DNA of 64,000 nucleotides from Blautia glucerasea (lineage in GTDB: Bacteria; Bacillota; Clostridia; Lachnospirales; Lachnospiraceae), in contig NZ_JAAITU010000009.1 of assembly GCF_013304385.1 (NCBI RefSeq), positions 1 to 64,000 on the forward strand, given 5' to 3'. The translations under genes and the position numbers were made by a program. Position 1 is the first letter of the stretch; every line of letters starts with the position of its first letter. The notes below the pieces were generated by a model that was not told the origin of the DNA, did not search any database, and saw nothing but the letters and a program-made list of their open reading frames with translations. Shown here piece by piece: positions 5,301 through 55,562 of the stretch.

Positions 5301-8300
5301 TTACAGTGACCGTCATCGGCAGAGCCTGGTCAGAAGCAACATCGCTGTCCTCAAAATCTACTGACTGGATCTTCAGATCCACAGTTTCTTCTACTGTCTT
5401 TTCTTCCAGATCAGAATATTTTGTGGTGCCATTTTCGTCATATTCTGCTCTGTTGTAGGAAAGTACCAGCTTGCCATCCTCATTAAAGGCTCCTGAAAGG
5501 CCGGAAATAATACCTGCTCCAAGGTTTCCAAGACAATGTACCTTTCCAAAAGCACCCTTTTCCCAGATACATCCATAGACAGCCTTCTGATTCTGATCCT
5601 GATCAGATGAAGCAGTGGCAGTCCACAGGATATAGGTTTTTGTCTGGGAACTGATCACCTGGAAATCCTTTGTAAGATTTTCCGGAAGCTGTGCCGGGTC
5701 AAACACATAAGAAGCTTTGTCATTTACATTTGCTTTATAAGCAATATTCCCATCCTGATACCAGAACATATACTCTGTTCCATCAAGGCTTCCGGTAATG
5801 ATGCCGGAGGCTGCACTTCCTTCCTCTGTACCAAGATTTCCTGTTTCACCTGTATTGATCTGAATATAGCCGCTCTGTCTTGTTTCATCTACATCTGCAA
5901 GGGCCTGTACGCCTTCACCAGAGGTAAAGGTATAGGTAACAACCGGGCCGGAGCCTGATGCAGCTACAGAGATCTGGGAAATATAACGGTTTGATCCAAT
6001 ATCTACAGACTGTACGCTTCCTTTATTACCATTTGCATTGATAGAAGTATAGTATACATAACCTGGCAGTGTAGTCTCAAGCGCCTTGTTTTCAGTATGA
6101 TACCATGCCACATATGCAACACCGTCTTTCACTGCGATTCCAGGAATGGTATCTGTCACATTATTATCTGTAAGAGGATATGTACGGATCATATCAGAAC
6201 CGCTGCCATAGTGGATCACAGCTACACAGATCTCAGATGCGTTTGCCATCTGATCTACCGTAGCGGAAGAATCGTCAAAGGCCTTCTTTGTATCCTGCCA
6301 TGCCACATAGATCACTTTCTTTGCTTCGTCTACTGCAACTGCAGGTGCAAAGTCAGAAGTTCCGTCATCGTCAATAATGGTATATCCTGTTTCTCCTGCT
6401 TTCTGATATACCAGCTGGCTGCTGTTGCAGATCTGCTTTGATGGATCCTCATGGATCCAGAATTTATAATTGGTTCCGCCTGCATTTACAAAAATGGGAT
6501 TGGAATCCGAGCCTGCAGTAATTCCGTTATCTGTCTCCACACCTTCCTCTGACGCCAGAAGGAAAGGCTGTGCATTCAGTTCATCGTAAATATTCTGATC
6601 CTGGCAATATACAGAACGATCCTTCCGGTTGCTGTCATATACAGTGACCGTAGCCTCTGCCAGCTTCAAACTCTTCTCAAACTTCCACACTGCAGCTTTC
6701 AGGCTGGCAGATGCTGTCAGCTCACAAAGCTGGGTAGACTTTACAAAGTCCGCTGTATACTTAACGGTTCCTCTTCCCTCTGCGCCAAAATTGACAATCC
6801 CCTTGGAACCTACGCCGCCTTCAATTGCTACAGAGATAGAAGGTGCAATGGTTCCGCTGGTCCATTTCGGCAAAAGTCCGTTCAGGTTCAATCCGTTCTG
6901 GTTTATAATACTTCCTCTGATCTCTGCTTCGATCTTTCCTTCTCCGCTTACTGAGATGTATGTAGGAACGATCCAGAAGAAATTGGTGGTATGGCTTCCA
7001 GAAACAGAACCGCATGCCCTGACGACTATATTGACTATTACCTTTCCGTTATCCAGATATCCTTCTCCATATCCGGCAACATTAAATGTAGTCTTAAAGC
7101 TTCCTATATTAAGCTTTGGCTGCTTCTTTCCAAGCTTAAAGTCCTTTGCCTTAGATTCCAGAAGTTCTTTGTTCAGCTTTTCCTTTTCCTTCTGGGTGCT
7201 AGGCATAAACTTCAGATTCAGACCAACGCTTACCTTTCCATTGTCATCGGTTTTCACTTCCAGATCCAGCAGATCATTCATACCGAATTTCAGGGCATTT
7301 CCCATGAACAAGGCTGCAAGGGAAGATTTTCCCACATTCCCCTCTCCCATGGTCATGAATTTCATCTTGGTAATACCCTTTGCCGAAACTACTGGTTTGG
7401 AAACCTTCAGTCCAAACTGGATCTCTTTGGAAGATTTACCATCCTTGGAAACGCATTTTACGTATCTTTTTGACTGGGAAGTAAGCTTCTCGATCACAGT
7501 GCCGTTTTTCTTTTCCAGTGTTTTGAATTCAAATACACCGGTTTTATTCTTGGCTACCACAGACTCGTCCTGCATCAGGAAATAGACACAGTCATCCATG
7601 TCGGACTCAACATTGATCTTAACGGTCTTTGTATTCTTGGCTTTTGCGATCTCAGCGCTTGAATCCTCCAGAAATGAAACCGTATCGATCAGAAGGTTCT
7701 TGTCTCCCATTGTAACGGACTCAATCTCCGGAGTGGTGTCATTCAGATTTTTCAGGGTAAAGACCATTGATTCTCCACCCTTAAGTTTCTTGCGGATCAC
7801 CTTGGTGCGATACTGGTCTTTGGAAATGCTAATATCCACATCTCCGGCAATGCTTTTTATGTCATCAAAAAGAATCTTGCCGTTTTCATCTGTTTTTCCC
7901 TGAAGTGTCTGCCCATTCTGTCCTGTAAGAGCAACATCCACATCTTCCAGATATTCTTCTGTACCGGTATCCTTTACCTTGATCAGGAACTGGTTTTTCC
8001 CTACTGATTCATTACCTGAGCCTGCTGTAATGGAATTACCTACACTGATTCCATAATAGGTTGAAACTTCCATGGATTTGCCGGCAGCCAGTGTTTTAGG
8101 ATCAAAGCGGATCGCTACTGCACTGTCTCCCAGACTGCTTCCCTCATATGGATCATAATCCCAGTATTCTCCACGGATGGATGACCAGTTGGTAAAATAT
8201 ACCACATCAGGTCTGCGCTCATTTCCTCTGTAAAGATATCCTGTAGCCAGTGTGGTGGGATCATCCAGACGGTCATATACCTGATAGGACTGAGGGATTG

Positions 8301-9051
8301 CTGCCCCTGTAAAAGTACGGATCGTGGTCTGGTTTCCTACTCCTGGAATCCTGAAAGGTGCATCGTCATTGTTAGCAAGCATGGTATCCAGCATAATACG
8401 GATACCTACATCTACTGCACTTCCGGATACATTGATGGCCTGGTAAGAAATCCTTACTGTATCTGCATAGCTGGCATTTCCGCTTTTTACCAGTTCCAGG
8501 GTCTGTATGATCTGTACACCGTTGTAGGTCATGCTGGCAATTACTTTATTGCCCACACTGTTTACTGTATCTGCCTCAAAAAAGCGTTCCTGATCTCCTA
8601 CTTTGATCAGGGTTTCTGATGTATTTGGATTGGGATGTCCATACAGAAGCTTTCTGTTATTGTCAGAATCGTAGTTTGGATTTCCTTCACAGGTTCCCAT
8701 GGTAAACTTGCCTTCGCTGTTTACTACTGCTTCCAGATAATTATTTCTCAGCCAGCCTTCAGTTCCTGAAGAATGAACCGCCGCAGTCTCCGGATTCACT
8801 CCCAGGTACTGTCTTACATAGGCCTTATAGACCTCATACAGATGGATGTTCTCTTCTTTTGAAAGACTGTCCACATCCACACCCTGACTTTCCAGATATT
8901 CTCTGAAAGACAGAAGCGCTTCCGGCTCTTCTGATCCTTCCTCACCGGAATCAGAGAACTCTTCTGCCTCTGTACTGCCATCCCCAAACAGGGAGTCTGT
9001 CTGTGCTGTATCGGATGCATCTGAAAAAACACTGTCTGTATCACCAGACAT
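2380..9051 (-). CDS. Giant multidomain surface protein, main body (5' part cut off by an in-frame amber)
   Basis: An open frame of 2223 residues. In order, counting from the first Met: an N-terminal beta-rich region (~50-340), a carboxypeptidase-regulatory-like beta-sandwich (~350-440), a long uncharacterised central part, an InlB-type divergent repeat (~1440-1515), about four BIG2 immunoglobulin-like domains (~1517-1847), a CUB-like domain (DFDYIYIMDGTGKKVGTY), and two Fn3-like repeats at the C-terminus. There is no LPXTG signal. The Met at 9051 has no ribosome site, and the frame continues upstream through a TAG (9067-9069) into a perfect signal peptide with a good ribosome site. The natural gene is therefore 2380-9246, about 2288 codons, now interrupted. 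It is probably an adhesin or cell-envelope protein; the ligand is unknown. Confidence 0.8.
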   Translation of the reverse strand: MSGDTDSVFSDASDTAQTDSLFGDGSTEAEEFSDSGEEGSEEPEALLSFREYLESQGVDVDSLSKEENIHLYEVYKAYVRQYLGVNPETAAVHSSGTEGWLRNNYLEAVVNSEGKFTMGTCEGNPNYDSDNNRKLLYGHPNPNTSETLIKVGDQERFFEADTVNSVGNKVIASMTYNGVQIIQTLELVKSGNASYADTVRISYQAINVSGSAVDVGIRIMLDTMLANNDDAPFRIPGVGNQTTIRTFTGAAIPQSYQVYDRLDDPTTLATGYLYRGNERRPDVVYFTNWSSIRGEYWDYDPYEGSSLGDSAVAIRFDPKTLAAGKSMEVSTYYGISVGNSITAGSGNESVGKNQFLIKVKDTGTEEYLEDVDVALTGQNGQTLQGKTDENGKILFDDIKSIAGDVDISISKDQYRTKVIRKKLKGGESMVFTLKNLNDTTPEIESVTMGDKNLLIDTVSFLEDSSAEIAKAKNTKTVKINVESDMDDCVYFLMQDESVVAKNKTGVFEFKTLEKKNGTVIEKLTSQSKRYVKCVSKDGKSSKEIQFGLKVSKPVVSAKGITKMKFMTMGEGNVGKSSLAALFMGNALKFGMNDLLDLEVKTDDNGKVSVGLNLKFMPSTQKEKEKLNKELLESKAKDFKLGKKQPKLNIGSFKTTFNVAGYGEGYLDNGKVIVNIVVRACGSVSGSHTTNFFWIVPTYISVSGEGKIEAEIRGSIINQNGLNLNGLLPKWTSGTIAPSISVAIEGGVGSKGIVNFGAEGRGTVKYTADFVKSTQLCELTASASLKAAVWKFEKSLKLAEATVTVYDSNRKDRSVYCQDQNIYDELNAQPFLLASEEGVETDNGITAGSDSNPIFVNAGGTNYKFWIHEDPSKQICNSSQLVYQKAGETGYTIIDDDGTSDFAPAVAVDEAKKVIYVAWQDTKKAFDDSSATVDQMANASEICVAVIHYGSGSDMIRTYPLTDNNVTDTIPGIAVKDGVAYVAWYHTENKALETTLPGYVYYTSINANGNKGSVQSVDIGSNRYISQISVAASGSGPVVTYTFTSGEGVQALADVDETRQSGYIQINTGETGNLGTEEGSAASGIITGSLDGTEYMFWYQDGNIAYKANVNDKASYVFDPAQLPENLTKDFQVISSQTKTYILWTATASSDQDQNQKAVYGCIWEKGAFGKVHCLGNLGAGIISGLSGAFNEDGKLVLSYNRAEYDENGTTKYSDLEEKTVEETVDLKIQSVDFEDSDVASDQALPMTVTVKNNGNLAAEGIDLSYICAEKDYEVGQGHKDVVIQPGEEKQIQIDYPVPELNVDDEPETYRIEVSAAGSGVRQDAAEFELGYRVLYVEQLDDVMMDNQECIVLQIVNDSGLETKNVGFRILADAKDGAVLYTENMGTLEPGEVRTVYFPRTTMDGSKAAYLYLATDSPRRNEEDAYSLLSNSSENVRLLTTSSFKITAGEGGTIVSENEKNYDSDTEIDVIAAAKNGYVFDHWTANAGIFEDEDSPSTTFIMPEKDVEVTALFKKEKKATGVSLPETLELSVGDVEQLNATVTPSDASDKCTYTTEQTDIISVSKKGEVEALKAGTAQIKVTCGAYSDTCSVTVKDVPVTDIRMIYPTLELDGVGAQDTVEVLLTPSNATEALTYTSDHPEIVSVDENGKVTANAVGDAEITVSTKSDVKGTCKVRVTNPLTGIQISESALKLKKNDSAVLSVNFLPFDTTEKQGVDWTIYDTDVAELVTSGENNSIASVKAISSGTTLIEASIGDTFHAYCNVTVYVPAERITLNTQNITIRDGQSYYLSYDIYPSDATDRVTFTSSNYDVADVYGDGEVYGRDPGTAVITAATESGLSASCQVTVVAPEDNMVNVTDLSQFQSDHPYANNEDRTWSYHVDGAGSVSITFSSDTETEDDFDYIYIMDGTGKKVGTYTGTELRNRTVTVSGSTIKVRLTSDSSYAKYGFRVVRASGTTSIGYAQIAAVPNQYYTGSAVTPALNITYMGRTLTAGVDYTVFYSSNINVGKATAVISGLGSFAGSATVEFYIVKPNLKKVTGGKTVSATQKKLTIGWNQQSGATGYYVYRYEKAKKKYVLRATLNGGTNTRYTDKDKKLKYGTKYRYKVIPFFIQGSLSAKGPAAVIESTLAPKKAAISRVTGGKRSLTVKYGRISRVNGYEVYVSKRKGSGYKLAATVKKGTVTKATAKRLTSKKTYYVKVRAYISTKSGKVYGAYSSPKKVRVK

Positions 9052-25512: not shown

Positions 25513-27669
25513 TTATTTCAATTTAACAGTTGTTGCTGCCCATTTGCTATAAATCTTTGCCCCATTTGCTGTATTAAAGGTCCTCACACGAATATAAATA
25601 GTTTTTCCTTTGCCCAGATTCTTCTGAGTATAGGATGTTGCTTTCTTTCCAAGTACCTTCACAGTTTTATAGGAACCTTTCTTGGATGTTTTCAGCTGGA
25701 TCTCATATCCAACAGCACCCTTTACTTTCTTCCAGGTCAGTTTTACAGTTCCTTTTTTCGGAGATGAAGCCTTAAGTGCAGCCTTTCCAGGTGCGGTATT
25801 CGTCTTCAGGATTTCTGTTTTGCCTTCTGTTTTCTTGTTCTTTGTAAGAGACACGATCCGGAACTGATATGTAGTTCCGCTCTGGAGTGCCTGACCTTTC
25901 AGTTTCTTAAATACATAACTGTTCTTGTTTGCAGCAACATCAGCAATCTTTGTCCAGCCTTTGCTCTTTCCACCTTTTACATAAATGCGATAGCCTTTCT
26001 TCGCAGCCGGATCCTTCTGCCATGTGATCTTGATCTGTGTTTCAGATGTTTTTACTGCTTTTACCGGTGCTTCCGGAGCCTTGGTAGGTTCTACAGTAAC
26101 CTCCGGAGCCTGAGTAGGTGCCGGTGTTGCTGTTGGTGCTACTGGTGCCGGTGTTGCTGTTGGCTCTGCCGGAACCGGTGTTGCTGTTGGCTCTGCCGGA
26201 ACCGGTGTTGCTGTTGGCTCTACCGGTTTTGCTTTGATGGTAAGCTGGAAGGTTCCCTCTACCTTGCCATCATTAACAGCAGGATCTCCGTCCTTATTTG
26301 CTGCGGTTACCGTTACAGTTCCGGCCTTTTTTGCTGTCAGGATTCCATTCTCATCAATACCAGCCAGTTCCGCATTATCTACAGACCATGTAATCTGGCT
26401 GTCCCTGATGCCCTCCGGCTGAACCTGTGCTGTGAATGTTGCCTCATCACCTTCAACCACTTCCGTTTTCTCTCCAGAAACAGTTACTTTTGAAGCATAG
26501 GGCACAATGGTGATCTGTTTGGAAGCAGTTACATCAGCATCACTGTCACTCCATTTCTCATCCGTGGATGTTGCAGTTACTGTCACTGTGCCTGCAGCCT
26601 TTGGTGTAAGTGTACCATCACTGGTCAGGTCTGCATATTCTGTACTGTCAATGCTCCAGACAATTCCCTGATCTGCTGCTGCAGGTAATACAGACGCTTC
26701 CAGTTTAACACTTCCACGGCATTCCTCCGGTACACTGTCCAGGCTGATCCCGTTTGCTTTCTGGATCTTGCTCATAGTAGAAAGAAATGCACTAGTTCCC
26801 ATCTTTGTTGATGCCAGATTACCATAGAACCAGGCTTCTTCCAGAGAATTATCATTAGTATCTCCCTGAACAATGCCATAGAAAGCATACTGTCCTACTT
26901 CTGTAAGGCTGGATGGAAAGCGAACCTTTTTCAGATGCTGGGCATTCTGAAATGCACCATGGAATATTTTTGTTACGCCATCCGGTACAACATAGGTTTC
27001 AGCGTTCCTTCCTGCCGGATATGCATACAGGATAGTACCTGCTTTATCATAAAGCACACCATCTATATCCTTGAAGCTGGTGCTTTTCTCATCTACAAGA
27101 ATATCCATCAGGCTGGTACAGCCATTAAAGATACGTGTATGGGCAATTCCCTGCGGATTGGTACCAAATGTTTTTACACTTGCCGGAATTTCCACCATCT
27201 CCAGACTGGAACATCCATCAAACATATAGTTTGGCAACTGGGTAAGTGTTTCAGGAAGCTTAATGCTGACCATCCCTGAACATCCCTCAAAAGCAGTGCG
27301 TCCAGGTCCTTTTGTCTGGAATGTTGTAACTTTGGTAGCGGAAATATCTATACTGGTAATTTCTGTCTTTTTACAGAAAATCCCATTTTTAATCTGGGAT
27401 ACAGAAGCCGTTACATCACCTTTCGTCACTGCTCCTGGAACAACCACATCATACGCATCAGCACCACTGAGATCGATCATGCCCAGAGTTGCACTTGAGC
27501 CACTTATCACAAAATTATATACGATCCCATTATCATCCGTATAATTATTCTCTCCGTCCAGCTGTACAGGATCTGCATCGTCTGCTTTTACAGCTGCCGG
27601 TGCTGCCATCATAACAGCTGCTGCCATAGCGGATAAAAACAATTTTGCATGTTTCTTCATGTTTTTCAT
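25513..27669 (-). CDS. Secreted LRR/BIG2/Fn3 surface protein
   Basis: A 718-residue protein. It has a signal peptide (KLFLSAMAAAVMMAAPAAVKA), BspA-like leucine-rich repeats (~70-300; GCSGMVSIKLPETLTQLPNYMFDGCSSLEMVEIPA-type units), two BIG2-type domains (~310-480), a Pro-Thr linker with PAEPTATPV repeats, and two Fn3-like domains (~545-718). The start at 27669 overlaps the stop of the upstream 2031-aa gene (ATGA), so the two are coupled. It is the last gene of the moxR-DUF58-transglutaminase-like operon and probably a cell-surface substrate or effector of that system; this is an inference. Confidence 0.88.
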   Translation of the reverse strand: MKNMKKHAKLFLSAMAAAVMMAAPAAVKADDADPVQLDGENNYTDDNGIVYNFVISGSSATLGMIDLSGADAYDVVVPGAVTKGDVTASVSQIKNGIFCKKTEITSIDISATKVTTFQTKGPGRTAFEGCSGMVSIKLPETLTQLPNYMFDGCSSLEMVEIPASVKTFGTNPQGIAHTRIFNGCTSLMDILVDEKSTSFKDIDGVLYDKAGTILYAYPAGRNAETYVVPDGVTKIFHGAFQNAQHLKKVRFPSSLTEVGQYAFYGIVQGDTNDNSLEEAWFYGNLASTKMGTSAFLSTMSKIQKANGISLDSVPEECRGSVKLEASVLPAAADQGIVWSIDSTEYADLTSDGTLTPKAAGTVTVTATSTDEKWSDSDADVTASKQITIVPYASKVTVSGEKTEVVEGDEATFTAQVQPEGIRDSQITWSVDNAELAGIDENGILTAKKAGTVTVTAANKDGDPAVNDGKVEGTFQLTIKAKPVEPTATPVPAEPTATPVPAEPTATPAPVAPTATPAPTQAPEVTVEPTKAPEAPVKAVKTSETQIKITWQKDPAAKKGYRIYVKGGKSKGWTKIADVAANKNSYVFKKLKGQALQSGTTYQFRIVSLTKNKKTEGKTEILKTNTAPGKAALKASSPKKGTVKLTWKKVKGAVGYEIQLKTSKKGSYKTVKVLGKKATSYTQKNLGKGKTIYIRVRTFNTANGAKIYSKWAATTVKLK

Positions 27670-30600
27670 ACTACTTGGTTCCTTTCTCTTTTTCTGCGCT
27701 TCCACGCAGTTCTTGTTCTATTTACCACACAGGCCCTGATCCAGAATAAAAGATAAAGCCCGCCGGCCAGTGCGATCCCGGAAACAACCTTCAGTTCTCC
27801 AGGCAGCCTCTGACCACTGCTTGCACTAGCCACATTTGCCTGTTTGGCAGCTCCGCTGTTACTGCTTCCCAGGCTTGTTTTTGTTTCTGATTTTTCCGGC
27901 GTTTGTCCCTCTGTACTTTCCTTTTTGCTTTTCTCTTTTTTCAGTTTTTTCTTCTTTGTATCACTCTTCCCTTCTTTTTGATCTGGCTTCTTCCTGTCAG
28001 ATCCCACAGCTCCACGCTTTTCCTGTGGGTTTTCTGATGATCCGGAAGAAGTTTTATTCATTTTTTTCAGTACTCCATCTCCTTCTTCCACGCTGTCCTT
28101 GTTATTTCGGATGTATGCAGTGGATTGTTGTCCTCCCGGCCCTTTCTTCCCTGAGGAACCGGAAATATTGTTTGCCTTATTCTTATCCGTGCTGCCGCTT
28201 TTACGGCTGTCGGGAATACTGACTGTAAGTACATTGCTGAAATTGCCGGCTTCATCCTTCATAATGATATGGATTTCTTTTTCACCGGCTGACAGCTTTT
28301 TCAAAGTAATAATATTGGTTCCGGCGATCCCTTCAATTCCTTTTCCTGAGGTATCGATCTGGTCGCTTCCACCCTTTTCTGTTACCTTGTAATAATATCT
28401 TCCCTTTTCTCCTGATTTGAAGATCACAGAGGCCTTTTTCCGGGAAATGCGGCTTGCAGAAACCGGCTTCAGCACCGGAGCTGTTGTATCTTTGATATAA
28501 AGCTTCACAAAATAATCTGTTCTTGTCTGATCCTCTGCTGTTACAGCGATCCGGACGGATGCCTCAAAAACCTGTTTTTCAAAATAAACCCTGCACACAG
28601 GATGGCTGCCTGTATGATCTACCTCTATGGATTCATCTTCTTTTGATACTGTGGATTTCTTAACACCGCCCACTGCATAAACCTTTACCGTTGCCTTTGG
28701 GTCGGAAACCTGCGGCCACAGGTTCAGGTAACTTCTCTCTCCCTCATATACAGCCTGGTAGTTAATGGTTTCAGATGAAAATGCAGGAGTGAGTTTCAAT
28801 ATTCCTTTTCCATACTTGTCAGAGCTGCTTACATACAGCTGTTTCAATGCAGAATCTGAGCTTCGGCTGCTTTCAAGCGTGATCTCAAACCGGGTAGTTT
28901 CCTCTGATGCAACAAAATCCAGTGTTTTTGTGTAATATCCATCCAAAGACACCGTAACTGTATAATGGTTTCCCGGAAACAGTGTACAGCTTCCGTTCTC
29001 CTGAGGAACCGTCCTTCCTGTATCATCCTGGACCACTACCTGTGCCTGTGCCGGTGTTACCACAAAGGACACCGTCAAAAGCTTATATTCCTGAAGTTCC
29101 AGATGGACAGGTGTTTCCATTTTATTTCCATAGCTGTCTACAGCCAGAATATAAATGTCTTTTGCACTGCCTCCGGTCACATCCAGTTCAAAGGAATTTT
29201 CCCCCTGCAGAAGTTCTGTACCTGGCACAGACAGATCAAATACCGGTGCATCTGCCCCCTTGTCCACAGCCGCCAGGTAATAATATCCGGTTTCATTAGA
29301 TTTAAAAGAAACCTGTGCATGGTCCTGGTCGATCCGCACTGCCCTGGTATCGGAAAGAACCGGCGGATATGTATCTGTGCGCCGCAGCGCTACATGATAC
29401 TCTTTCACCGTTACTCCGTCCCCGGCTGTTACCTTCAATGTAACCTGTGCCACAGCTGCCTGGTCATCAAAGTAAACTGCAAACCGGGTCGCACCCAAAG
29501 TTCCTGCTGTATTTTCAAAACGCATGATCCTTCGGGTTCCTTCGCCGGCTTCTGCTGTAACCTTTCCAAAGCTTCCTGCCGGTGAAGCGAAAATATTCAG
29601 AAATTTCTTTCCCCCTGTATATACATCGGAAGTATAATCCGTAATATCCTTTGAGAAAGCCGGCGTTACCGGGATCTGACTTGCTGTAACATTCACTGCA
29701 TTATTATCGCTGACGATCAGCGATGCCAGGTCTGCATTGCTTCCAAGTCCCAAAAGTTTAAAACGGTAGGTTCGTTTCTGCTGACCATACTCAACAACTA
29801 CCTGTATCTCTCCCTCGCCCTGTTCATTCAGGGGCACTGTGGTAATGCCTGTATATGGCTGCCCGTTTACAGTAGCAGTCCTGCCACTTGGTATAGTCAG
29901 CTTTACAAAAGCCGCCTTTGTGCCATTTGGCATGGTCAGTGTATAGGAGCCTGTGGAAGAAGAAAAATCATCGTCCCATTTTACTTTTCCCTCCTGACAG
30001 GTGATATCCACATCATCCAGATAAGCACTGTTAGAGGAAATTGCCATCAGATATCCGGAGTCGTTCTTATAATACAAAGTACCGTCGCTGTCAGCACAGA
30101 TAGTACTGATACAGTACTGCTGCTGTTTTTTGTCCGGAATGTACAGGTCCTCGGCTTTTCCTTCTGTCTGTCCCGGCTCGTCAGAGATAAAGCTGATTCC
30201 GCCCGGGTATACATTATAGGTAAAGTAAACGTACACCCTTCCATCCGGTTTGCCGTCTCCGTTATAATCCTCGTTTTCATAGGCAGTGGAAAGGGTTGCC
30301 CCTGCCTGGGGATATCCCCGGATAGGCACGGAATATGCACGGTACAACCCGTTTGCATCCTCAGTAAGTACATCAAAATGATGGCCTGCATCCTCCTGGA
30401 ACTGTCCGCCGGTTCCGCATACACCAATGTAGATACGACCATTATGGACCACCGGTGACGCAGTTGCCATTCCTCCCAGGGAAATAGCCACAAGCTGGCC
30501 AAAAGTTCCATCCGCATGCATCTGCACCCTGTAAAGGATGCCGCCTTTTGTTGCAAAATAAATGTATCCGTTGTCGTACACAATGGAAGTACGGATATCC

Positions 30601-33600
30601 CCATCCAGTCCGGAAATCATATCAATCTGGATTCCGGTTTTTGCTGATACGGAATACAGGATCGATGAGGCTGTATAACTGCCCTCCCGTGAACCGTCAT
30701 CTGATCCGAAAACCAGATATTTTTCTGTTGCATAGGAGCCGGCCCAGTAAAATCCGCCCATATGGGAGAATTTCCAGGCACATTTCTTGATCTCTGTCGG
30801 ATTGTCCGGATCCTCGTCTGTAACAGAAAGGCAGAAATATGTACCCTCCTTGCTTTCTGAATTCCAGGTTCCTGTATAAATATACCCGTTTTTATAGGTA
30901 ATAGGAGAAAGCGTCTGTCCTCCCAGCACCTCACTGATCCATACGGATTTCAGGGTCGTGGCATCTACTGCCTGGACCTGCCCGTTTCCTACCTGTGCAA
31001 AGATCATTCCTTCCGCATAGGTCAGGGGATTTAAGGCAAAAACAAGACTTCCCTTCAACTGGTCACTTACAGCCAGGATCTTGCCTGTTTCCTTATCAAC
31101 CTTATAAATATATTTACCTGATCCTGTATACAGCTGTCCCCCGAGGATCAGTGGGGGAGTACAGGATTCGCTCCAGCTGCTGCTGATCTGAAGTGCCCAC
31201 TTTTCGCTGGTTTCCTTAGGGTTATTTGGTGTACTTACGCTGGTAACACCGTTATTTTCTTCATTGTTGCGGTAATTCCACCACTCATTGTCTGTCAGTT
31301 CCTCATGCTTGGTATCTGCCCGTTCCAGACGGACCTTCAGACTTCCACCAGGTTGTGCAGTAAAGGTTCCTGACTCAGTTTTAAACCCGTAACAGCTGAC
31401 CGTATAGGAATATTCCGTATCTCCTTTCAGGCCTGCAAACATATTGGGTTGATTCTCTGAGGGCATCACCCTTTTTCCCAAAGGATCATATACACAGACT
31501 AATGCATCCTCCGGGTCTGTCTGGAAAGTCATATCCGAAACAGCAGATCTTTTTATGGTGATGGAATAATTTCCCTCTGTGGTATACGTTTTCCCGGCCA
31601 GAGCCCCTTCCACATAAGTTTCTTCCTTTGCAAGCCTGACAGGGATCACTGTAACCGGATCGGTGATGGGAATTTCAAGCTCTTCGCCGCTTTCCCATGG
31701 CTGTCCATTGATAAACAGGCTGTACCCTTCCTCCTGTTTGATGGTTGCCTTCACATAAACCTGTTTTACCTGATCGGTTATAGAGGCTGTATAATCAAAA
31801 ACATTACTGAAAAATCTTTTCTCGTTAAAAATTGATTCTCCGTCTGACGAGTCCGAACAGGTCAGATCATTCAACGCCAGGGTGCGAGTGACAAGGATCT
31901 TGTAAACCTCCTGTTCTTCACCGTTTCCTACAGTGACTGTACAGATTCCTCTTCTGGCGCCATATTCACCTGATTTGAAGAAATCTCCGGTAAATCCATT
32001 ACGATAATCCAGATTTTCTTTCGACAGCAGCATTTTCCGGCTCAGTGGATTTCCATTTACATCTGTGGCACTCATTACAGCTTCCGAACCAGCAGGTGCA
32101 AAAGCAGAAAGGCTTGCAGACAGAAAGAACGAGTAATTGGAACTGTACTGATTGCTGTATTCAGCAACATAGGTAATACCTCCCAGTTCCTGATCCAGCT
32201 CTTCATGGCGTACCAGTGTTTTTTCCATTCCACCGGAACCACTGTGCTGCCTTGTGTTCAGAGTCATTTCCTCCAGATAATGGCCCTTGGCTTTCTGTGT
32301 AAATTCAATATTAATATGACCGTTTTCCTCTGTTGCCGTAAATTGGCCTTTTACCCGCTGGTATCCATCTGCATAGGCTACATAGGAATAACTGTTGTTT
32401 TCAAGAAGTCCTGTAAAAATAAGGGGATCTTCTTTATTAGAGGTGATCTTGGCCCCATACTGATCATGCATCTCCACAAAAAAAGTATCTCCAGCCCCTT
32501 GGCTCTCTGTAGAAAAAGTCATGTTCAGAGATTTTTGCACAGGATGTATATGCAAGGTGTAAACCGTATCTTCTACACCTTCGTAGGAAAGACAGATTTC
32601 CACATCCTCTTCCCCGCCTTTTAATACACAGGCATATTCTTCGTCAGTAGGCGTTTCTGTTCCATTTATCGTAACCCGGTATTTTTCCCGTACATCTGCA
32701 TATTGGCAATAATAGGTCTCAGGAAACAGGGATAAGGTCTGTCCTGTGGTATCTCCCGGAAGATACAGATCATATTCTTTCTGGAAATCCGGGTCTTTAT
32801 CTGCAAACAACTCTTCCCGTTCATGGTTGTAAAGCACATATTCCGTTCCCTGATAGGCTGCTTTCAGATATCCCAGAGAAAGAATACGTTTTACATGTAC
32901 CAGGTAATCTTTTGTGCCGCTTTTTGAATGGATCTGCATGGTATTTTCACCCGGTCCATAATCCACAATATAATCCATTGCCTGATAATTGCCATACTTT
33001 GCATAGGCATTCAGATTTACGCTTTCCCTTTCCCCATTGTGATTTACATAAGTAGAAAGTACAGGTTCTGAATAACTGGACACGCCAAGACCGTAAATTC
33101 CTTTTGTAAAATCCGGTAAATACAGAGTATACTCATGGATCTCCGGTGAAAAATCCGGTACAGTCTTGTAGATCACATCACCTTCTGACATGGTAGTCCT
33201 GGAAGCAAAGCTTAACTGCTCCAGCCAGTCATCACTATCCTTTGTCGCATCCTCAGAATCTGCATCTTTCCCTGAATCCGTGGCACTGTTATTTTTGTCT
33301 GTTTCCTGACTCTGATCTTCCTGACTCCCTGTTGCCCCCTCCTGGCTGTTATCTCCTTCCGACGGCGTTGTCGTTGGTTCTGGCGGCACTGCTGTTGGTT
33401 CTGACGGCGCTATCGTGGGGTCTGACGGTGCCATTGTGGGTTCTGACGGCGCTATCGTCGGTTCTGACGGCGCTATTGTGGGGTCTGACGGCGCTATTGT
33501 GGGGTCTGACGGCGCTGCTGTTGGTTCTGGCGGCGCTGCTGTTGGTTCTGGCGGCGCTGCTGTTGGTTCTGGCGGCGCTGCTGTTGGTTCAAACAGTGCT

Positions 33601-33761
33601 TCTCCTGTTTTTTCCTCAGTCTGTACTGCCGATGCCCCTGCAGTCTCTGCCTGGACTGCTTCTTTGGTTATCTGTGGCTCTTTTATCTCTTCTGCTAATA
33701 CCGGAACACTGCTAAACAGCAGTATCACGGACATATAAACGGCCAGCAATTTCTCTTTCAT
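27666..33761 (-). CDS. Giant surface protein with beta-propeller and cadherin-like domains
   Basis: A 2031-residue protein. The signal peptide is KEKLLAVYMSVILLFSS. Next come eleven heptad repeats of (E/D)PT(A/I)AP(P/S) at ~54-130, cadherin-like beta-sandwich repeats (starting near ~187, 623, 1340 and 1633), a PQQ-like beta-propeller (~850-1237; LYTGSGKYIYKVDKETGKIL), a low-complexity Lys/Ser-rich stretch, and a C-terminal membrane helix (~1990-2010) with a basic tail (KRRKRER). No LPXTG motif is seen, so it is membrane-anchored rather than sortase-attached. It starts 1 nt after the DUF4430 gene stop. The role is probably adhesion or extracellular assembly. Confidence 0.88.
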   Translation of the reverse strand: MKEKLLAVYMSVILLFSSVPVLAEEIKEPQITKEAVQAETAGASAVQTEEKTGEALFEPTAAPPEPTAAPPEPTAAPPEPTAAPSDPTIAPSDPTIAPSEPTIAPSEPTMAPSDPTIAPSEPTAVPPEPTTTPSEGDNSQEGATGSQEDQSQETDKNNSATDSGKDADSEDATKDSDDWLEQLSFASRTTMSEGDVIYKTVPDFSPEIHEYTLYLPDFTKGIYGLGVSSYSEPVLSTYVNHNGERESVNLNAYAKYGNYQAMDYIVDYGPGENTMQIHSKSGTKDYLVHVKRILSLGYLKAAYQGTEYVLYNHEREELFADKDPDFQKEYDLYLPGDTTGQTLSLFPETYYCQYADVREKYRVTINGTETPTDEEYACVLKGGEEDVEICLSYEGVEDTVYTLHIHPVQKSLNMTFSTESQGAGDTFFVEMHDQYGAKITSNKEDPLIFTGLLENNSYSYVAYADGYQRVKGQFTATEENGHINIEFTQKAKGHYLEEMTLNTRQHSGSGGMEKTLVRHEELDQELGGITYVAEYSNQYSSNYSFFLSASLSAFAPAGSEAVMSATDVNGNPLSRKMLLSKENLDYRNGFTGDFFKSGEYGARRGICTVTVGNGEEQEVYKILVTRTLALNDLTCSDSSDGESIFNEKRFFSNVFDYTASITDQVKQVYVKATIKQEEGYSLFINGQPWESGEELEIPITDPVTVIPVRLAKEETYVEGALAGKTYTTEGNYSITIKRSAVSDMTFQTDPEDALVCVYDPLGKRVMPSENQPNMFAGLKGDTEYSYTVSCYGFKTESGTFTAQPGGSLKVRLERADTKHEELTDNEWWNYRNNEENNGVTSVSTPNNPKETSEKWALQISSSWSESCTPPLILGGQLYTGSGKYIYKVDKETGKILAVSDQLKGSLVFALNPLTYAEGMIFAQVGNGQVQAVDATTLKSVWISEVLGGQTLSPITYKNGYIYTGTWNSESKEGTYFCLSVTDEDPDNPTEIKKCAWKFSHMGGFYWAGSYATEKYLVFGSDDGSREGSYTASSILYSVSAKTGIQIDMISGLDGDIRTSIVYDNGYIYFATKGGILYRVQMHADGTFGQLVAISLGGMATASPVVHNGRIYIGVCGTGGQFQEDAGHHFDVLTEDANGLYRAYSVPIRGYPQAGATLSTAYENEDYNGDGKPDGRVYVYFTYNVYPGGISFISDEPGQTEGKAEDLYIPDKKQQQYCISTICADSDGTLYYKNDSGYLMAISSNSAYLDDVDITCQEGKVKWDDDFSSSTGSYTLTMPNGTKAAFVKLTIPSGRTATVNGQPYTGITTVPLNEQGEGEIQVVVEYGQQKRTYRFKLLGLGSNADLASLIVSDNNAVNVTASQIPVTPAFSKDITDYTSDVYTGGKKFLNIFASPAGSFGKVTAEAGEGTRRIMRFENTAGTLGATRFAVYFDDQAAVAQVTLKVTAGDGVTVKEYHVALRRTDTYPPVLSDTRAVRIDQDHAQVSFKSNETGYYYLAAVDKGADAPVFDLSVPGTELLQGENSFELDVTGGSAKDIYILAVDSYGNKMETPVHLELQEYKLLTVSFVVTPAQAQVVVQDDTGRTVPQENGSCTLFPGNHYTVTVSLDGYYTKTLDFVASEETTRFEITLESSRSSDSALKQLYVSSSDKYGKGILKLTPAFSSETINYQAVYEGERSYLNLWPQVSDPKATVKVYAVGGVKKSTVSKEDESIEVDHTGSHPVCRVYFEKQVFEASVRIAVTAEDQTRTDYFVKLYIKDTTAPVLKPVSASRISRKKASVIFKSGEKGRYYYKVTEKGGSDQIDTSGKGIEGIAGTNIITLKKLSAGEKEIHIIMKDEAGNFSNVLTVSIPDSRKSGSTDKNKANNISGSSGKKGPGGQQSTAYIRNNKDSVEEGDGVLKKMNKTSSGSSENPQEKRGAVGSDRKKPDQKEGKSDTKKKKLKKEKSKKESTEGQTPEKSETKTSLGSSNSGAAKQANVASASSGQRLPGELKVVSGIALAGGLYLLFWIRACVVNRTRTAWKRRKRERNQVV
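33358..33600 (-). repeat. 21-bp tandem repeats coding heptads
   Basis: About eleven 21-bp units inside the giant gene encode (E/D)PT(A/I)AP(P/S) heptads. Several units are near identical at DNA level, so copy number could vary by slippage without breaking the frame. Confidence 0.8.
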
Positions 33762-33762
33762 T

Positions 33763-35139
33763 CTACCAATCCCCCCATGTTTCACCTCCGAGCATCGCTT
33801 CACCAATATCTGCTCCATAATATAAAGTGAAACGTACCCGTATTTCATCCCCATCTGCTGGGAAATAGGTATTCATTCCTGAACTCAGATACGTACCGTT
33901 TACAGAAAACATCCATCCGGCTCCTCCGGTAAGCGTACCATCTCCCAGCCAGTCAGGGGAGCAGGTTTCCGGATCCGGAATGTCATTTACATCCTCCAGA
34001 TGCTGCAGAATCTCTGCCGGAATCTGATATCCCAAAGTGATTCCCGGACGATCCACGGATTTAAGGTAAAACCCAGCATCCATAGATCCTGTATAATGAT
34101 ACTGGAACCCTGAAGAATAAAGCACACGGTTCAGTACATAAGGCAGGGTTTCTTCTTCATAAAACGGAACCTCTGCCGGCCCGATCAGGTATCCCAGTCC
34201 CATAGTGGAAGCTTCCAGGCTGAAGGTGATGGTTCCTGCAGGCTGCTCTTCTTCCTCATCTCCTGTGATTTCCTTATATACAGTCACACTCACTGTATCC
34301 TGATTGCCATATCTGTCCTGTGCCGTAATACTGATCGTATTCACATCATCAAGATATGCTTTGTATTTGATCACCCCATTATCCGTTGAAATACTGGTAA
34401 GATGCTGTCCATTGCAAAGCACAGTCAACTGGGAAGGAGTCAGTGCCCTTTCCTTATAGTCCTCTGCATAAACAGAAAATACCCTGGATTCCCTGTGGAT
34501 CACTTCTCCATCCTGCAGGTCTGAACTGATAGAAGGCCGCAGATCCTCCACCTCTGGAGTTGGCGTAGGCGTATTCTGTGGAACCTCAGCCTCTTCCTGA
34601 TTATAATCATCATCTCCGGCTTCTGCGTGATCTTCCTCTATCACCTGGGTGTCATCAAAGATTTTTGTAACTGGCTTTTCTTCTCCATTTTTATCGTCCT
34701 CTGAAGCGGAAGGCTTCTCCCCATTTCCATGCTCGCTGGTCTGTGTACCCGGATCTTCCGGCTGTTCCTGTGAATTTCCCTCATTTAGATTCTCCTGTAC
34801 AGGCTTCTCCGGTACAGGCTCTTCCTGTGGTTCCTGTATTTCCTCTTTTTGCTCTTCCTTTGGAGCCTGGGAAGGCGTAGGAGTGGGATCCTCCTGCATC
34901 AGCACTTCTGTTTCCGGCTGTTCTTCTATTGTATCCTCATCGCTGCTGACCACAGGAGTATAATACCCTTCACCTCTGTAGAGAACCTGGGATCTTTCCT
35001 GATTTACACCTGTAACAGGATTCTCCGGGATTTGTTTTTGCTGTGATCCTATTTTTGCTGCAAATCCGGCAGTAAGCAGGATCAGACACAAAATCAGCCC
35101 TAGCACTGCCGCTGCTTTTCTTCTTTGATCATGCTTCAT
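33763..35139 (-). CDS. DUF4430 domain membrane-anchored protein
   Basis: A 458-residue protein with an N-terminal signal anchor (AAVLGLILCLILLTAGFAA), a long acidic Pro/Glu-rich linker (~45-205), a beta-sandwich region (~215-300), and a C-terminal DUF4430-like domain (~305-458; LPYVLNRVLYSSGFQYHYTG, GAGWMFSVNGTYLSSG). DUF4430 is related to the C-terminal domain of cobalamin-binding intrinsic factor, but no ligand can be assigned. It has a GGGAGG ribosome site and lies 27 bp after the transglutaminase-like gene in the same operon. Confidence 0.83.
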   Translation of the reverse strand: MKHDQRRKAAAVLGLILCLILLTAGFAAKIGSQQKQIPENPVTGVNQERSQVLYRGEGYYTPVVSSDEDTIEEQPETEVLMQEDPTPTPSQAPKEEQKEEIQEPQEEPVPEKPVQENLNEGNSQEQPEDPGTQTSEHGNGEKPSASEDDKNGEEKPVTKIFDDTQVIEEDHAEAGDDDYNQEEAEVPQNTPTPTPEVEDLRPSISSDLQDGEVIHRESRVFSVYAEDYKERALTPSQLTVLCNGQHLTSISTDNGVIKYKAYLDDVNTISITAQDRYGNQDTVSVTVYKEITGDEEEEQPAGTITFSLEASTMGLGYLIGPAEVPFYEEETLPYVLNRVLYSSGFQYHYTGSMDAGFYLKSVDRPGITLGYQIPAEILQHLEDVNDIPDPETCSPDWLGDGTLTGGAGWMFSVNGTYLSSGMNTYFPADGDEIRVRFTLYYGADIGEAMLGGETWGDW

Positions 35140-51329: not shown

Positions 51330-52019
51330 TTATTTCATAAAAGCAGCCATCTCTTTTTCAAAATCATACTCATGCTCGTTATTTCTGTGCTCTCCTGTAA
51401 TGGCAAACTCCACCCATTCAGCAATATTCACGGCATGATCACCAATCCTCTCAAAATATTTTGCAGTCATAAGAATATCCAGACCAGTACGCGCATCAAG
51501 CTTTTTTCCGTAGATCTGATCCGCCAGATTCTCCTTGATCTCATTGAAAGCATTGTCCACAATGTCATCACTGTTGATCACATATCTGCTCTTTTTAAGA
51601 TCCATGTCCACAAAAGCTTCAATGCTTCCCTGAACCATATGTACCGTAGCATCTGCGATTCCTGCAATATCTGCGGACACCTTTACTGCTGCAGTATCCA
51701 TATGAAGCGCCAGATCAGCAATATCTGCAGCCTGATCTCCGATTCTTTCCATATCTGCCACCATACGAAGTGCAGCTGAGATCCGCCGAAGATCTCCGGC
51801 AACCGGCTGCTGAAGAAGCAGCAGCTTCATGCATTGTCCTTCAATCTCACGCTCTTTTGCGTCAATATCCCGATCCGTTTCAAATACCTGACGGACGACC
51901 TGATCCCCGCCTCCACGAACAGCTTCTGCGGAAAGAGTAATCGCCTGTTCGCACAGATTTCCAATTGCGATCATCTGTGCATGCAATTCTTCCAGCTTTC
52001 TTTCAAAATGCGTTCCCAT
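51330..52019 (-). CDS. phoU: Phosphate transport regulator PhoU
   Basis: A 229-residue all-helical protein with two repeated three-helix PhoU domains. Metal/contact motifs are visible as DMERIGDQAADIAD and FERIGDHAVNIAEW. PhoU links Pst transport activity to PhoR signalling and prevents phosphate overload. It is the last gene of the pst operon, 5 bp after pstB; its ribosome site is weak, which suggests coupling. Confidence 0.95.
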   Translation of the reverse strand: MGTHFERKLEELHAQMIAIGNLCEQAITLSAEAVRGGGDQVVRQVFETDRDIDAKEREIEGQCMKLLLLQQPVAGDLRRISAALRMVADMERIGDQAADIADLALHMDTAAVKVSADIAGIADATVHMVQGSIEAFVDMDLKKSRYVINSDDIVDNAFNEIKENLADQIYGKKLDARTGLDILMTAKYFERIGDHAVNIAEWVEFAITGEHRNNEHEYDFEKEMAAFMK

Positions 52020-52024
52020 AGTCT

Positions 52025-52783
52025 TTAACCAAACCTTCCTGTAATATAGTCCTCTGTTCTCTTATCCTGAGGCATGGAAAACAGCTTCTGTGTCTTGGCA
52101 AACTCTACCACTTCGCCTAATAAGAAGAATCCTGTTTTGTCGGAAATTCTGGTTGCCTGCTGCATATTATGTGTAACGATCACAATGGTATAGTCCTTCT
52201 TTAATTCCATTGCCAGTTCCTCAATCCTTGAAGTAGAAATAGGATCCAGCGCAGAAGTAGGCTCATCCATAAGAAGAACTTCCGGCTGCACTGCCAGAGC
52301 TCTTGCAATGCAAAGACGCTGCTGCTGGCCGCCGGACATCCCCAGTGCGCTCTTTTTCAATCTGTCCTTAACCTCGTCCCAGATTGCTGCATCACGCAGG
52401 GATTTTTCCACAATCTCATCCAGCTTTGCCTTGGAACGGATCCCATGTGTTCTTGGTCCATAGGCAATATTATCGTAAATACTCATAGGGAATGGATTGG
52501 GCTTCTGGAAAACCATACCTACTCTTTTTCGCAGCAGATTCACATCCATATCTCCGTAAATATCCTGTCCATCCAGTTCTACTTTTCCTGTGATCTTACA
52601 TCCTTCTACCAGATCATTCATCCTGTTCAGGGACTTTAACAACGTAGATTTTCCACAGCCGCTGGGGCCGATAAATGCGGTTATTTCCTTCTCAGGTATT
52701 TCCATATTGATATTCTTTAACGCATGGAAATTGCCATAATGCAGATCCATATTACTGATCTGGATTTTCGTTTTTTCACTCAT
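52025..52783 (-). CDS. pstB: Phosphate ABC transporter ATPase PstB
   Basis: A 252-residue ATPase. Walker A is [19 protein letters not shown], the signature [14 protein letters not shown], Walker [14 protein letters not shown], and the switch His is in [11 protein letters not shown]. It powers phosphate uptake through PstA-PstC. It follows pstA by 4 bp. Confidence 0.97.
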
Positions 52784-52787
52784 AAAA

Positions 52788-53672
52788 TTATCCTTTCGCT
52801 ATCCTTTTTGCCACACGGCCGGACAGCCAGTTAATAAGCATTACAAAGAACAAAATGATCACAGCCGTTGCTGCTGCCTGGTTCATGTGCAGACCTTCAC
52901 AGGAAAGTACATACATATGAAGAGCCAGAGTACGTCCTGAGCCCATCAGGCTGTCCGGAATTTTCGGAAGTGTACCGGAGGTATAGATCAGCGCAGCTGT
53001 CTCACCAACTACTCTTCCTACTGCAAGGATCACACCTGCCAGGATCCCTGGAACTGCAGAAGGAAGTACAATAGTAAATATCGTCCGAAGCTTTCCTGCA
53101 CCAAGGCCAAAACTGGCTTCCCGGTAGGAATCAGGAACTGATTTTAATGCTTCCTCTGATGTACGCATGATCAGTGGAAGGATCATGATCACCATCGTAA
53201 ATGCACCTGCAAGCAGGGACATTTTCCACTTCAATGCTGTTACAAAAAACAGCATACCAAACAGACCAAATACAATGGATGGAATACCTGAAAGTGTTTC
53301 TGCCGTAATACGGATCACATTCACAAGGCGGCTTCCTTTTTTTGCATATTCTACCAGATAGATTGCTGCAAAAATTCCCAGTGGTGCAGCAATTGCCAAT
53401 GATACGATTGTCATGATAAAGGTATTGATCAGCGCCGGAACAAGTGAAACATTATCGGATGTATATGTGAAGGAAAACAGATCCTTATTCAGATAAGGAA
53501 CTCCTTTTACCAGTATATATGCGATCAGGAATAATAACACTGCAAAGGTTATACCTGCTGCCAGGATCGTTAAAAATTTCAGGATTTTTGATCCAATATA
53601 TTTAGGTTTTGCTGGCTTCGTCCTTGTATAAGCCATAGAACCTCCTATCGTCATTGCTGCATCACCCTTCAT
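52788..53672 (-). CDS. pstA: Phosphate ABC transporter permease PstA
   Basis: A 294-residue permease with about six membrane helices and the EAA coupling loop ([20 protein letters not shown]). An N-terminal extension of ~30 residues precedes helix 1. The start at 53672 overlaps the end of pstC and has AGGAGG six bases upstream. Confidence 0.95.
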
Positions 53673-54519
53673 TTTCGCTCCTCCTGTTCAGCAGAGAAAG
53701 ACTGAGATTTATGATCAGAATAAATACAAACAACACAACAGCCGTTGCGATCAGTGCCTGTCTGTGCAATCCGGTTGCATACCCCATATCTGTTACAATA
53801 TTCATTGTCATTGTACGCACACCTTTCAGCAATCCTTTTGGCATTCTGGGCTGATTTCCGGCGATCATTACCACTGCCATGGTTTCTCCGATGGCACGGC
53901 CGATCCCCAGTACAATACCTGCCAGGATTCCTGATTTTGCCGCCGGAAGCATAACCGCATATATGCTTCTTTCTTTTGTAGCTCCAAGGGCAAGCGACCC
54001 TTCATAATAGCTTTCCGGTACCCCCCGGATGGCTGCTTCTGTCACACCTACAATGGTAGGTAGGATCATGATCCCAAGCAGAATAATTGCAGCCAGCATG
54101 CTGGCTCCAGGTCCGCCGAATACGTCCCGGATCAAAGGAACGATCAGTACAAGTCCAAAAAATCCATATACGATGGATGGGATTCCGGCCATCAATTCAA
54201 TCCCTGATTTCAAAACACCATAAATCCTTTTGGGACAATATCTGGCCATAAATACGGATGTTAAAACCGCAATAGGAACTCCTACCAGAATTGCTCCACC
54301 AGTAACATAAATGCTGGCAACGATCATTGGAAGGATTCCGAATTTGTTGTTAGAAGGTTTCCATTCCTGTCCAAACAGAAACTTTAATGGTCCGATCTGT
54401 TCAATGGTAGGGAGTCCATTGGCAAACAAAAAAATACAGATCAGAAGTACTGCCAGAACAGAAGTGCATGCAGCGATCAGAAATACCATCTTCATGCCTT
54501 TTTCTTTTACTCGATTCAT
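53662..54519 (-). CDS. pstC: Phosphate ABC transporter permease PstC
   Basis: A 285-residue permease with about six membrane helices and the EAA loop (EGSLALGATKERSIYAVMLP). AGGTG precedes the start. It lies 103 bp downstream of the permuted pstS gene. It forms the membrane channel with PstA. Confidence 0.95.
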   Translation of the reverse strand: MNRVKEKGMKMVFLIAACTSVLAVLLICIFLFANGLPTIEQIGPLKFLFGQEWKPSNNKFGILPMIVASIYVTGGAILVGVPIAVLTSVFMARYCPKRIYGVLKSGIELMAGIPSIVYGFFGLVLIVPLIRDVFGGPGASMLAAIILLGIMILPTIVGVTEAAIRGVPESYYEGSLALGATKERSIYAVMLPAAKSGILAGIVLGIGRAIGETMAVVMIAGNQPRMPKGLLKGVRTMTMNIVTDMGYATGLHRQALIATAVVLFVFILIINLSLSLLNRRSENEG

Positions 54520-54622
54520 AAATACACCTGTCTTTTTTAATAGATACAGTTACATGTTACAACGCCGATGCCCTGTTATTTCCAAAGCACCGACGCCGTT
54601 TCGCTTGTGATATCAAGGATTT

Positions 54623-55480
54623 TTATTTCGCCAGATCATCCCAGGTAGTTGTCTCGCCTGTGAAAATGGATTTTACCTGATCGCTGGTAAGCTCATCTAC
54701 ATCATTGTCTTTGTTTACGATTACTGCAATACCATCTCTTGCGATTTCCTGTGCAGTAAGACCATCTTTCTCCTCATCTTTCAGATCACGGGATGCCATA
54801 CCAATGTCACAGATACCTTCTTTTGCAGATGTGATACCTGTTGTGGAATCGCTCTGCTGTACCTCTACTGTTACGTCTTTGTTTGCTGCCTGATAAGCCT
54901 CAGCAAGTTTCTCCATTACTGGTGTTACAGAAGAAGATCCTGCTACAACAACTTTTCCGGATGGTGCTGCGCTCTCATAAGCTTTAGCTTCTGCATCTAC
55001 TTTAATGTATCCATTATCCTCGATGATCTGCTGTCCGTCTGCGCTCATAATGTAGTTAATAAAATCCTGAGCTGCATCACTTACAGAATCGCCTGTAATG
55101 ATGTTGAACGGACGAGATACTTTGTAAGAACCGTCAGATACATTCTCTACGCTGGCTTCTGCACCATCGATCTTTACAGCCTTTACTGTGTCATCCAGGG
55201 ATCCAAGAGAAATGTATCCGATTGCATTCTCATCACCAGCAACGGTTGTCATCATAACAGATGTGCTGTTTGTGATGCTTGCTTCCTCTGTAGTCATATC
55301 TACCTTCTCATCACCCTGTTTTTCTTCTATTCCGAACAGTTCGATAAATGCGCCTCTTGTACCGGAACCATCCTCACGGGATACAACGGTGATATCTCCG
55401 CTTGCTGCGCTTACTGTACCTGCAAATGCTGTAGCTCCTAATACTGCTGCTGTTAAAACTGCTGCAATTTTTTTCTTCAT
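54623..55480 (-). CDS. pstS: Circularly permuted phosphate-binding protein PstS
   Basis: A 285-residue phosphate-binding protein, first gene of the pst operon. After a signal peptide (~1-26; AVLGATAFAGTVSAAS) comes the half that is normally C-terminal: SREDGSGTR (34-42), GYISLGSLDDTVKAVKIDG, SRPFNIITG. A linker (~161-174) leads to the half that is normally N-terminal: GSSSVTPVMEKLAEAY (181-196), QQSDSTTG (208-215), DIGMASRDLKDEEK (225-238), and the protein ends at IFTGETTTWDDLAK. Usual PstS has the order SSSVTP ... DIGMASR ... IFTG..TW ... SREDGSGTR. All phosphate-contact motifs remain, so binding is probably kept. There is no lipobox Cys; the only Cys is C224. AGAGGAG lies upstream. Confidence 0.92.
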   Translation of the reverse strand: MKKKIAAVLTAAVLGATAFAGTVSAASGDITVVSREDGSGTRGAFIELFGIEEKQGDEKVDMTTEEASITNSTSVMMTTVAGDENAIGYISLGSLDDTVKAVKIDGAEASVENVSDGSYKVSRPFNIITGDSVSDAAQDFINYIMSADGQQIIEDNGYIKVDAEAKAYESAAPSGKVVVAGSSSVTPVMEKLAEAYQAANKDVTVEVQQSDSTTGITSAKEGICDIGMASRDLKDEEKDGLTAQEIARDGIAVIVNKDNDVDELTSDQVKSIFTGETTTWDDLAK

Positions 55481-55562
55481 GATAATCTTTCTCCTCTTTC
55501 TTGATTCGCTTTATTTAATTTTTCCTGTTGCCTCATTTACAGGTGCTATTGTAGATGCCCTT

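Follow-up and report, generated by a model that had tools for sequence, protein, structure and literature searches.

In the window analysed here, the first 64,000 nucleotides of a contig of Blautia glucerasea (NZ_JAAITU010000009.1, assembly GCF_013304385.1), a gene at the position of pstS encodes a protein in which the two halves of the phosphate-binding protein appear in exchanged order. The question is whether this is a natural circular permutation of a working importer component, and how it may have arisen. A sequence-only reading of this DNA had claimed that the halves are swapped, that the break falls at the normal junction between them and that a linker of about 14 residues joins the old termini, in an open frame with a signal peptide and a ribosome site. 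We call the canonical N-terminal half A and the canonical C-terminal half B. The features of the gene are as follows.

54623..55480, minus strand: pstS, circularly permuted phosphate-binding protein of 285 aa (ORF, profile and PDB search)
55490..55496, minus strand: ribosome-binding site AGGAGA, about 9 bases upstream of the pstS ATG (read from the sequence)
55403..55480, minus strand: signal peptide, residues 1-26, type I (VSA/A), with no lipobox Cys, the same in 24 Blautia-type loci
54995..55402, minus strand: B half with SREDGSGTR, residues 27-162, now N-terminal (TIGR02136 161-294; structure match of 22-161 to 1TWY 136-276)
54959..54994, minus strand: linker that joins the former C- and N-termini, about 12-13 residues (half-domain models; ordered in the predicted model, pLDDT about 92-94)
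54629..54958, minus strand: A half with GSSSVTP...QQSDSTTG, residues 175-284, now C-terminal (TIGR02136 36-157; structure match of 171-285 to 9L8J 2-118)

The frame is open throughout, and the translation places SREDGSGTR at residues 34-42 and GSSSVTP at residues 181-187. Alignment of the halves to the family profile TIGR02136 did not recover the canonical order: the profile matches in two inverted pieces, the N-terminal half of the protein corresponding to profile positions 161-294 and the C-terminal half to positions 36-157, so that the break costs the match just three profile positions. The profile is thus represented by both of its halves, while the combined score of the two swapped stretches (193.5 bits) stays below the curated cut-off of 206.6, because the profile expects the opposite order. 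According to the half-domain models the linker measures 13 residues, and the new joint spans 11-17 residues in all relatives but one. The swapped order and the position of the break are therefore confirmed by the motif positions and the inverted profile pieces, and the signal peptide and the ribosome site are present, as the earlier reading had stated.

The best match in a sequence search of the PDB is 4H1X, 'phosphate-binding protein PstS 2' (SP_2084) of S. pneumoniae TIGR4, released in 2012. It is collinear with the window's protein over the whole mature chain, residues 24-283 aligning to 5-264 (E 8e-75, 50% identity over 255 columns), while the canonical structures 4Q8R and 4GD5 align in two swapped pieces; this combination excludes chance. 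A structure prediction built from 24 sequences has a mean pLDDT of 88.4, stays above 90 through the linker and is poor in the signal peptide only. Superposed on crystal structures, the predicted model matches 4H1X over its full length with the same fold and topology (Z 35.7, 1.9 A, 257 of 257 residues, TM 0.93 of target), and canonical structures (1TWY, 4Q8R and 4GD5 among them) by halves only, with residues 22-161 on 1TWY 136-276 and 171-285 on 9L8J 2-118. Sequence profiles, predicted structure and a solved relative thus agree in showing a naturally permuted protein whose break lies at the A/B junction. Since 4H1X shows the swapped order, the permuted topology has been in the PDB since 2012, and the window's protein adds one more member to a permuted PstS family already known from a crystal structure; it is a real curiosity and not a new kind of protein. 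The literature that we covered on permuted PstS, 4H1X, SP_2084, permuted binding proteins and lipobox loss nowhere describes the permutation; subscription papers fell outside this coverage, so novelty is unproven.

The permuted gene heads a complete pstSCAB-phoU operon, in agreement with the gene order that had been read from the sequence.

53662..54519, minus strand: pstC, permease (TIGR02138, 288.7 bits, over cut-off)
52788..53672, minus strand: pstA, permease (TIGR00974, 270.3 bits, over cut-off)
52025..52783, minus strand: pstB, ABC ATPase (PF00005; the name comes from operon position)
51330..52019, minus strand: phoU (PF01895)
54559..54599, minus strand: 17-bp stem-loop in the gap between pstS and pstC, the whole gap folding with z -3.85

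A search of the genome, which is 99.97% complete, found no second, canonical PstS elsewhere, and the permuted gene is the sole PstS found; the idea that it is a spare beside a canonical copy was rejected on this account. Residues R35, S39, G40, T41, R42, S182 and S212, among others, are kept at no less than 90% in proteins of both orders, and we take them, by motif, to be the counterparts of the phosphate contacts of E. coli PstS. Such conservation speaks for a phosphate receptor of the ordinary Venus-flytrap kind. The short linker bridges the old termini, the new termini lie at the former A/B junction, and the two lobes and the phosphate site would be left unchanged by the permutation. The protein would then enclose phosphate as other Venus-flytrap PstS proteins do and hand it to PstC and PstA, the changed topology being presumably neutral for binding, but with the N-terminal tether point moved to the A/B junction. 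Taking the evidence together, we consider it very probable that the product is the substrate-binding protein of a working Pst importer in circularly permuted form, for which a single early origin by fusion and truncation is the likeliest. The stem-loop between pstS and pstC perhaps raises the pstS message over that of pstCAB. Most relatives likewise have stem-loops downstream of pstS (101 of 138 reach a local energy below -15 kcal/mol, a count with no shuffle control), and the sequences of these are mostly unrelated.

The sequence-only reading had also noted the absence of a lipobox, and had implied a link between this absence and the permutation. The absence itself is borne out: the signal peptide ends in ...FAGTVSA/A and no Cys precedes residue 224. 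The implied link fails. The lipobox pattern is matched by 113 of 139 permuted PstS proteins, two of which (L044 and L059) are probably without a true lipobox, and 24 of the 26 proteins that lack the pattern are Blautia-type sequences, so that all 24 Blautia-type loci are without it. Signal peptides of other ABC binding proteins, hand-read from a simple pattern scan, lack a lipobox in 10 cases and carry one in 4 in the window genome, lack it in 15 or 16 of 18 readable cases in five other genomes of the genus, and carry it in 8 of 8 readable cases in three clostridia outside the genus. Most sampled ABC binding proteins of the genus being without a lipobox, its absence is a habit of the genus and not a consequence of the permutation, and on these counts the link between permutation and lipobox loss was rejected. 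The type I signal without lipobox is the usual form among the sampled ABC substrate-binding proteins of the window genome (G000) and its relatives (loci L194-L210 and L228-L257). Two lgt-like genes are present in the Blautia glucerasea genome. That so few ABC binding proteins of the genus carry a lipid anchor raises a separate question, namely how a single-membrane bacterium keeps them at its surface.

Regarding distribution, it had been guessed that related Lachnospiraceae carry the permuted form, which is right but too narrow. By our own count from the search table, 56 of 291 Clostridia genomes contain a full-length collinear match, and a phylum-wide sample extends the form to other classes of the same phylum, besides Streptococcus pneumoniae. 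A scan of species genomes gave 80 high-identity permuted loci, of which two belong to records that carry the label Actinomycetota; the occurrences in that phylum come from these two MAG records only (Eggerthellaceae and Coriobacteriales). The half-domain scan of all ORFs in the collected loci found 142 B-A, 51 A-B and 2 A-B-A-B proteins, a few of the B-A entries being duplicates of the window's own gene. In two genomes two permuted pstS genes stand in tandem before pstC (L144:4380-6261 and L145:5227-7220, both on the minus strand), and one genome of the same genus carries a second, divergent permuted PstS of 35% identity (G674:C1:1175976-1176719, L224).

How the permuted form arose was approached by a tree of 102 rows, for which each protein was cut into its halves and the halves were put in canonical order; its bootstrap is not fully settled, and midpoint rooting serves for drawing only. 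Out of 57 permuted rows, 55, with 4H1X among them, form one clade (bootstrap 95, SH-aLRT 84), and a weakly supported sister relation (84/83) links it to a small clade of canonical sequences. Two very divergent, long-branch permuted rows (L148 and L150) lie outside it in the free tree, where their placement is unsure, and under the AU test a tree that unites all 57 is not rejected (p-AU 0.227). One old permutation is therefore likely from the un-permuted sequence alignment, although unproven. Canonical order is present across bacteria and archaea, and is for this reason taken as ancestral.

Two genomes of one genus code, G592 and G633, hold what a route by duplication and truncation predicts, a tandem canonical PstS fused in a single frame.

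L142:3850-5481, minus strand: fused tandem PstS, A-B-A-B, in a pst operon (half-domain scan)
L143:3632-5224, minus strand: fused tandem PstS, A-B-A-B, in a pst operon (half-domain scan)

These proteins, of 544 and 531 aa and 75% identical, have one lipobox, at the N-terminus, and are flanked by response-regulator and histidine-kinase genes upstream and by pstC-pstA-pstB-phoU on the other side, the gene names having been given from reading the sequences. Their existence shows that a pst operon can be served by a protein so arranged. In the tree the two units cluster with each other in a different canonical clade (100/95); the fusion is thus an independent event, and direct descent of the permuted clade from the fused genes is not supported. 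The A-B-A-B form was not seen in other genomes sampled from the class of G592 and G633. The permuted form would have originated once and early, when a tandem fusion gave A-B-A-B and the two outer halves were lost to leave B-A, and would then have spread by descent and some transfer. We lean, by a modest degree, towards a full account in which one old permutation, produced when tandem copies fused in frame and were truncated, displaced the canonical form or came to stand beside it across Clostridia and other groups, the living fused genes showing that the intermediate is viable.

Other explanations have to be weighed against this account. The window genome is a draft of 175 contigs, which might suggest that two pstS fragments were wrongly joined in assembly; however, about 140 ORFs share the swapped order although their genomes were assembled independently, some of these being isolates (for example Blautia wexlerae, Coprococcus catus and Faecalicatena contorta), and the crystal structure 4H1X has it too. 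With the 80 further loci and this structure at hand misassembly was rejected, and its chance is negligible. The missing lipid anchor, in turn, could mean that the permuted protein senses phosphate, or scavenges it after release from the cell, and is not the binding protein of the transporter, as the absence of a lipobox from all 24 Blautia-type loci would allow. This is improbable, though less so than misassembly, given that the protein is the only PstS found in its genome and lies within a complete pst operon, and that other ABC binding proteins of the genus also do without a lipobox, so that the absence is not special to PstS.

A stronger competitor concerns the history of the protein rather than its function: the permutation may have arisen more than once, or by another route such as fission and re-fusion of half genes. 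In favour of this are the divergent rows outside the main clade, the fused forms in another branch and the occurrence of permuted paralogues in tandem (L144 and L145). On the other hand, a single permuted clade survives the AU test, the break point and the linker length are alike in nearly all permuted PstS proteins, and the ORF scan of the collected loci turned up no split half-genes. We therefore regard repeated origin or another route as unlikely, yet as deserving far more weight than either of the two explanations above, and keep to a single tandem fusion with truncation as the preferred history.

Comparison with known systems places the window's protein more closely. It has the swapped order, the break and the fold in common with SP_2084, and differs from it in lacking the lipoprotein signal, with no Cys, that most members of the 4H1X type carry and that is not essential to the type; SP_2084 itself is a lipoprotein, and the two sit in different parts of the permuted clade. 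With canonical PstS of the TIGR02136 family (C. perfringens 4Q8R and 4GD5, the latter with phosphate; V. cholerae 1TWY) it has both halves, the phosphate-site residues and the pst operon in common, but not the order of the halves or a score over the cut-off. The fused proteins of G592 and G633 contain the B-A joint inside A-B-A-B and stand in a pst operon, but keep both canonical units complete and belong to another PstS clade. A naturally permuted ABC substrate-binding protein has been described before, TpMglB-2 (Tp0684) of Treponema pallidum, for which the authors proposed the label 'type Ic' (PMC4990184). Unlike the window's PstS, it binds glucose, belongs to topology class type I with an extra fourth crossover, and is poorly conserved in its permuted part (PMC4990184).

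The value of the finding lies in the breadth of the permuted form, its likely single origin and its fused counterpart. As far as we know, it is rare for a natural circular permutation to have its predicted fused intermediate still present in the same family. With canonical, fused and permuted PstS in the same operon context, the route by duplication and truncation, and the cost of permutation to binding and docking, become directly testable, and if the single old origin is true, PstS would offer a ready system in which to test how proteins become circularly permuted in evolution. For annotation, permuted PstS can be under-called, as the profile in canonical order scores it below cut-off. Elsewhere in the window, two very large surface-type proteins of 2223 and 2062 aa, with Ig-like, InlB-like or cadherin-like domains, are encoded at 2380-9051 and 27666-33854.
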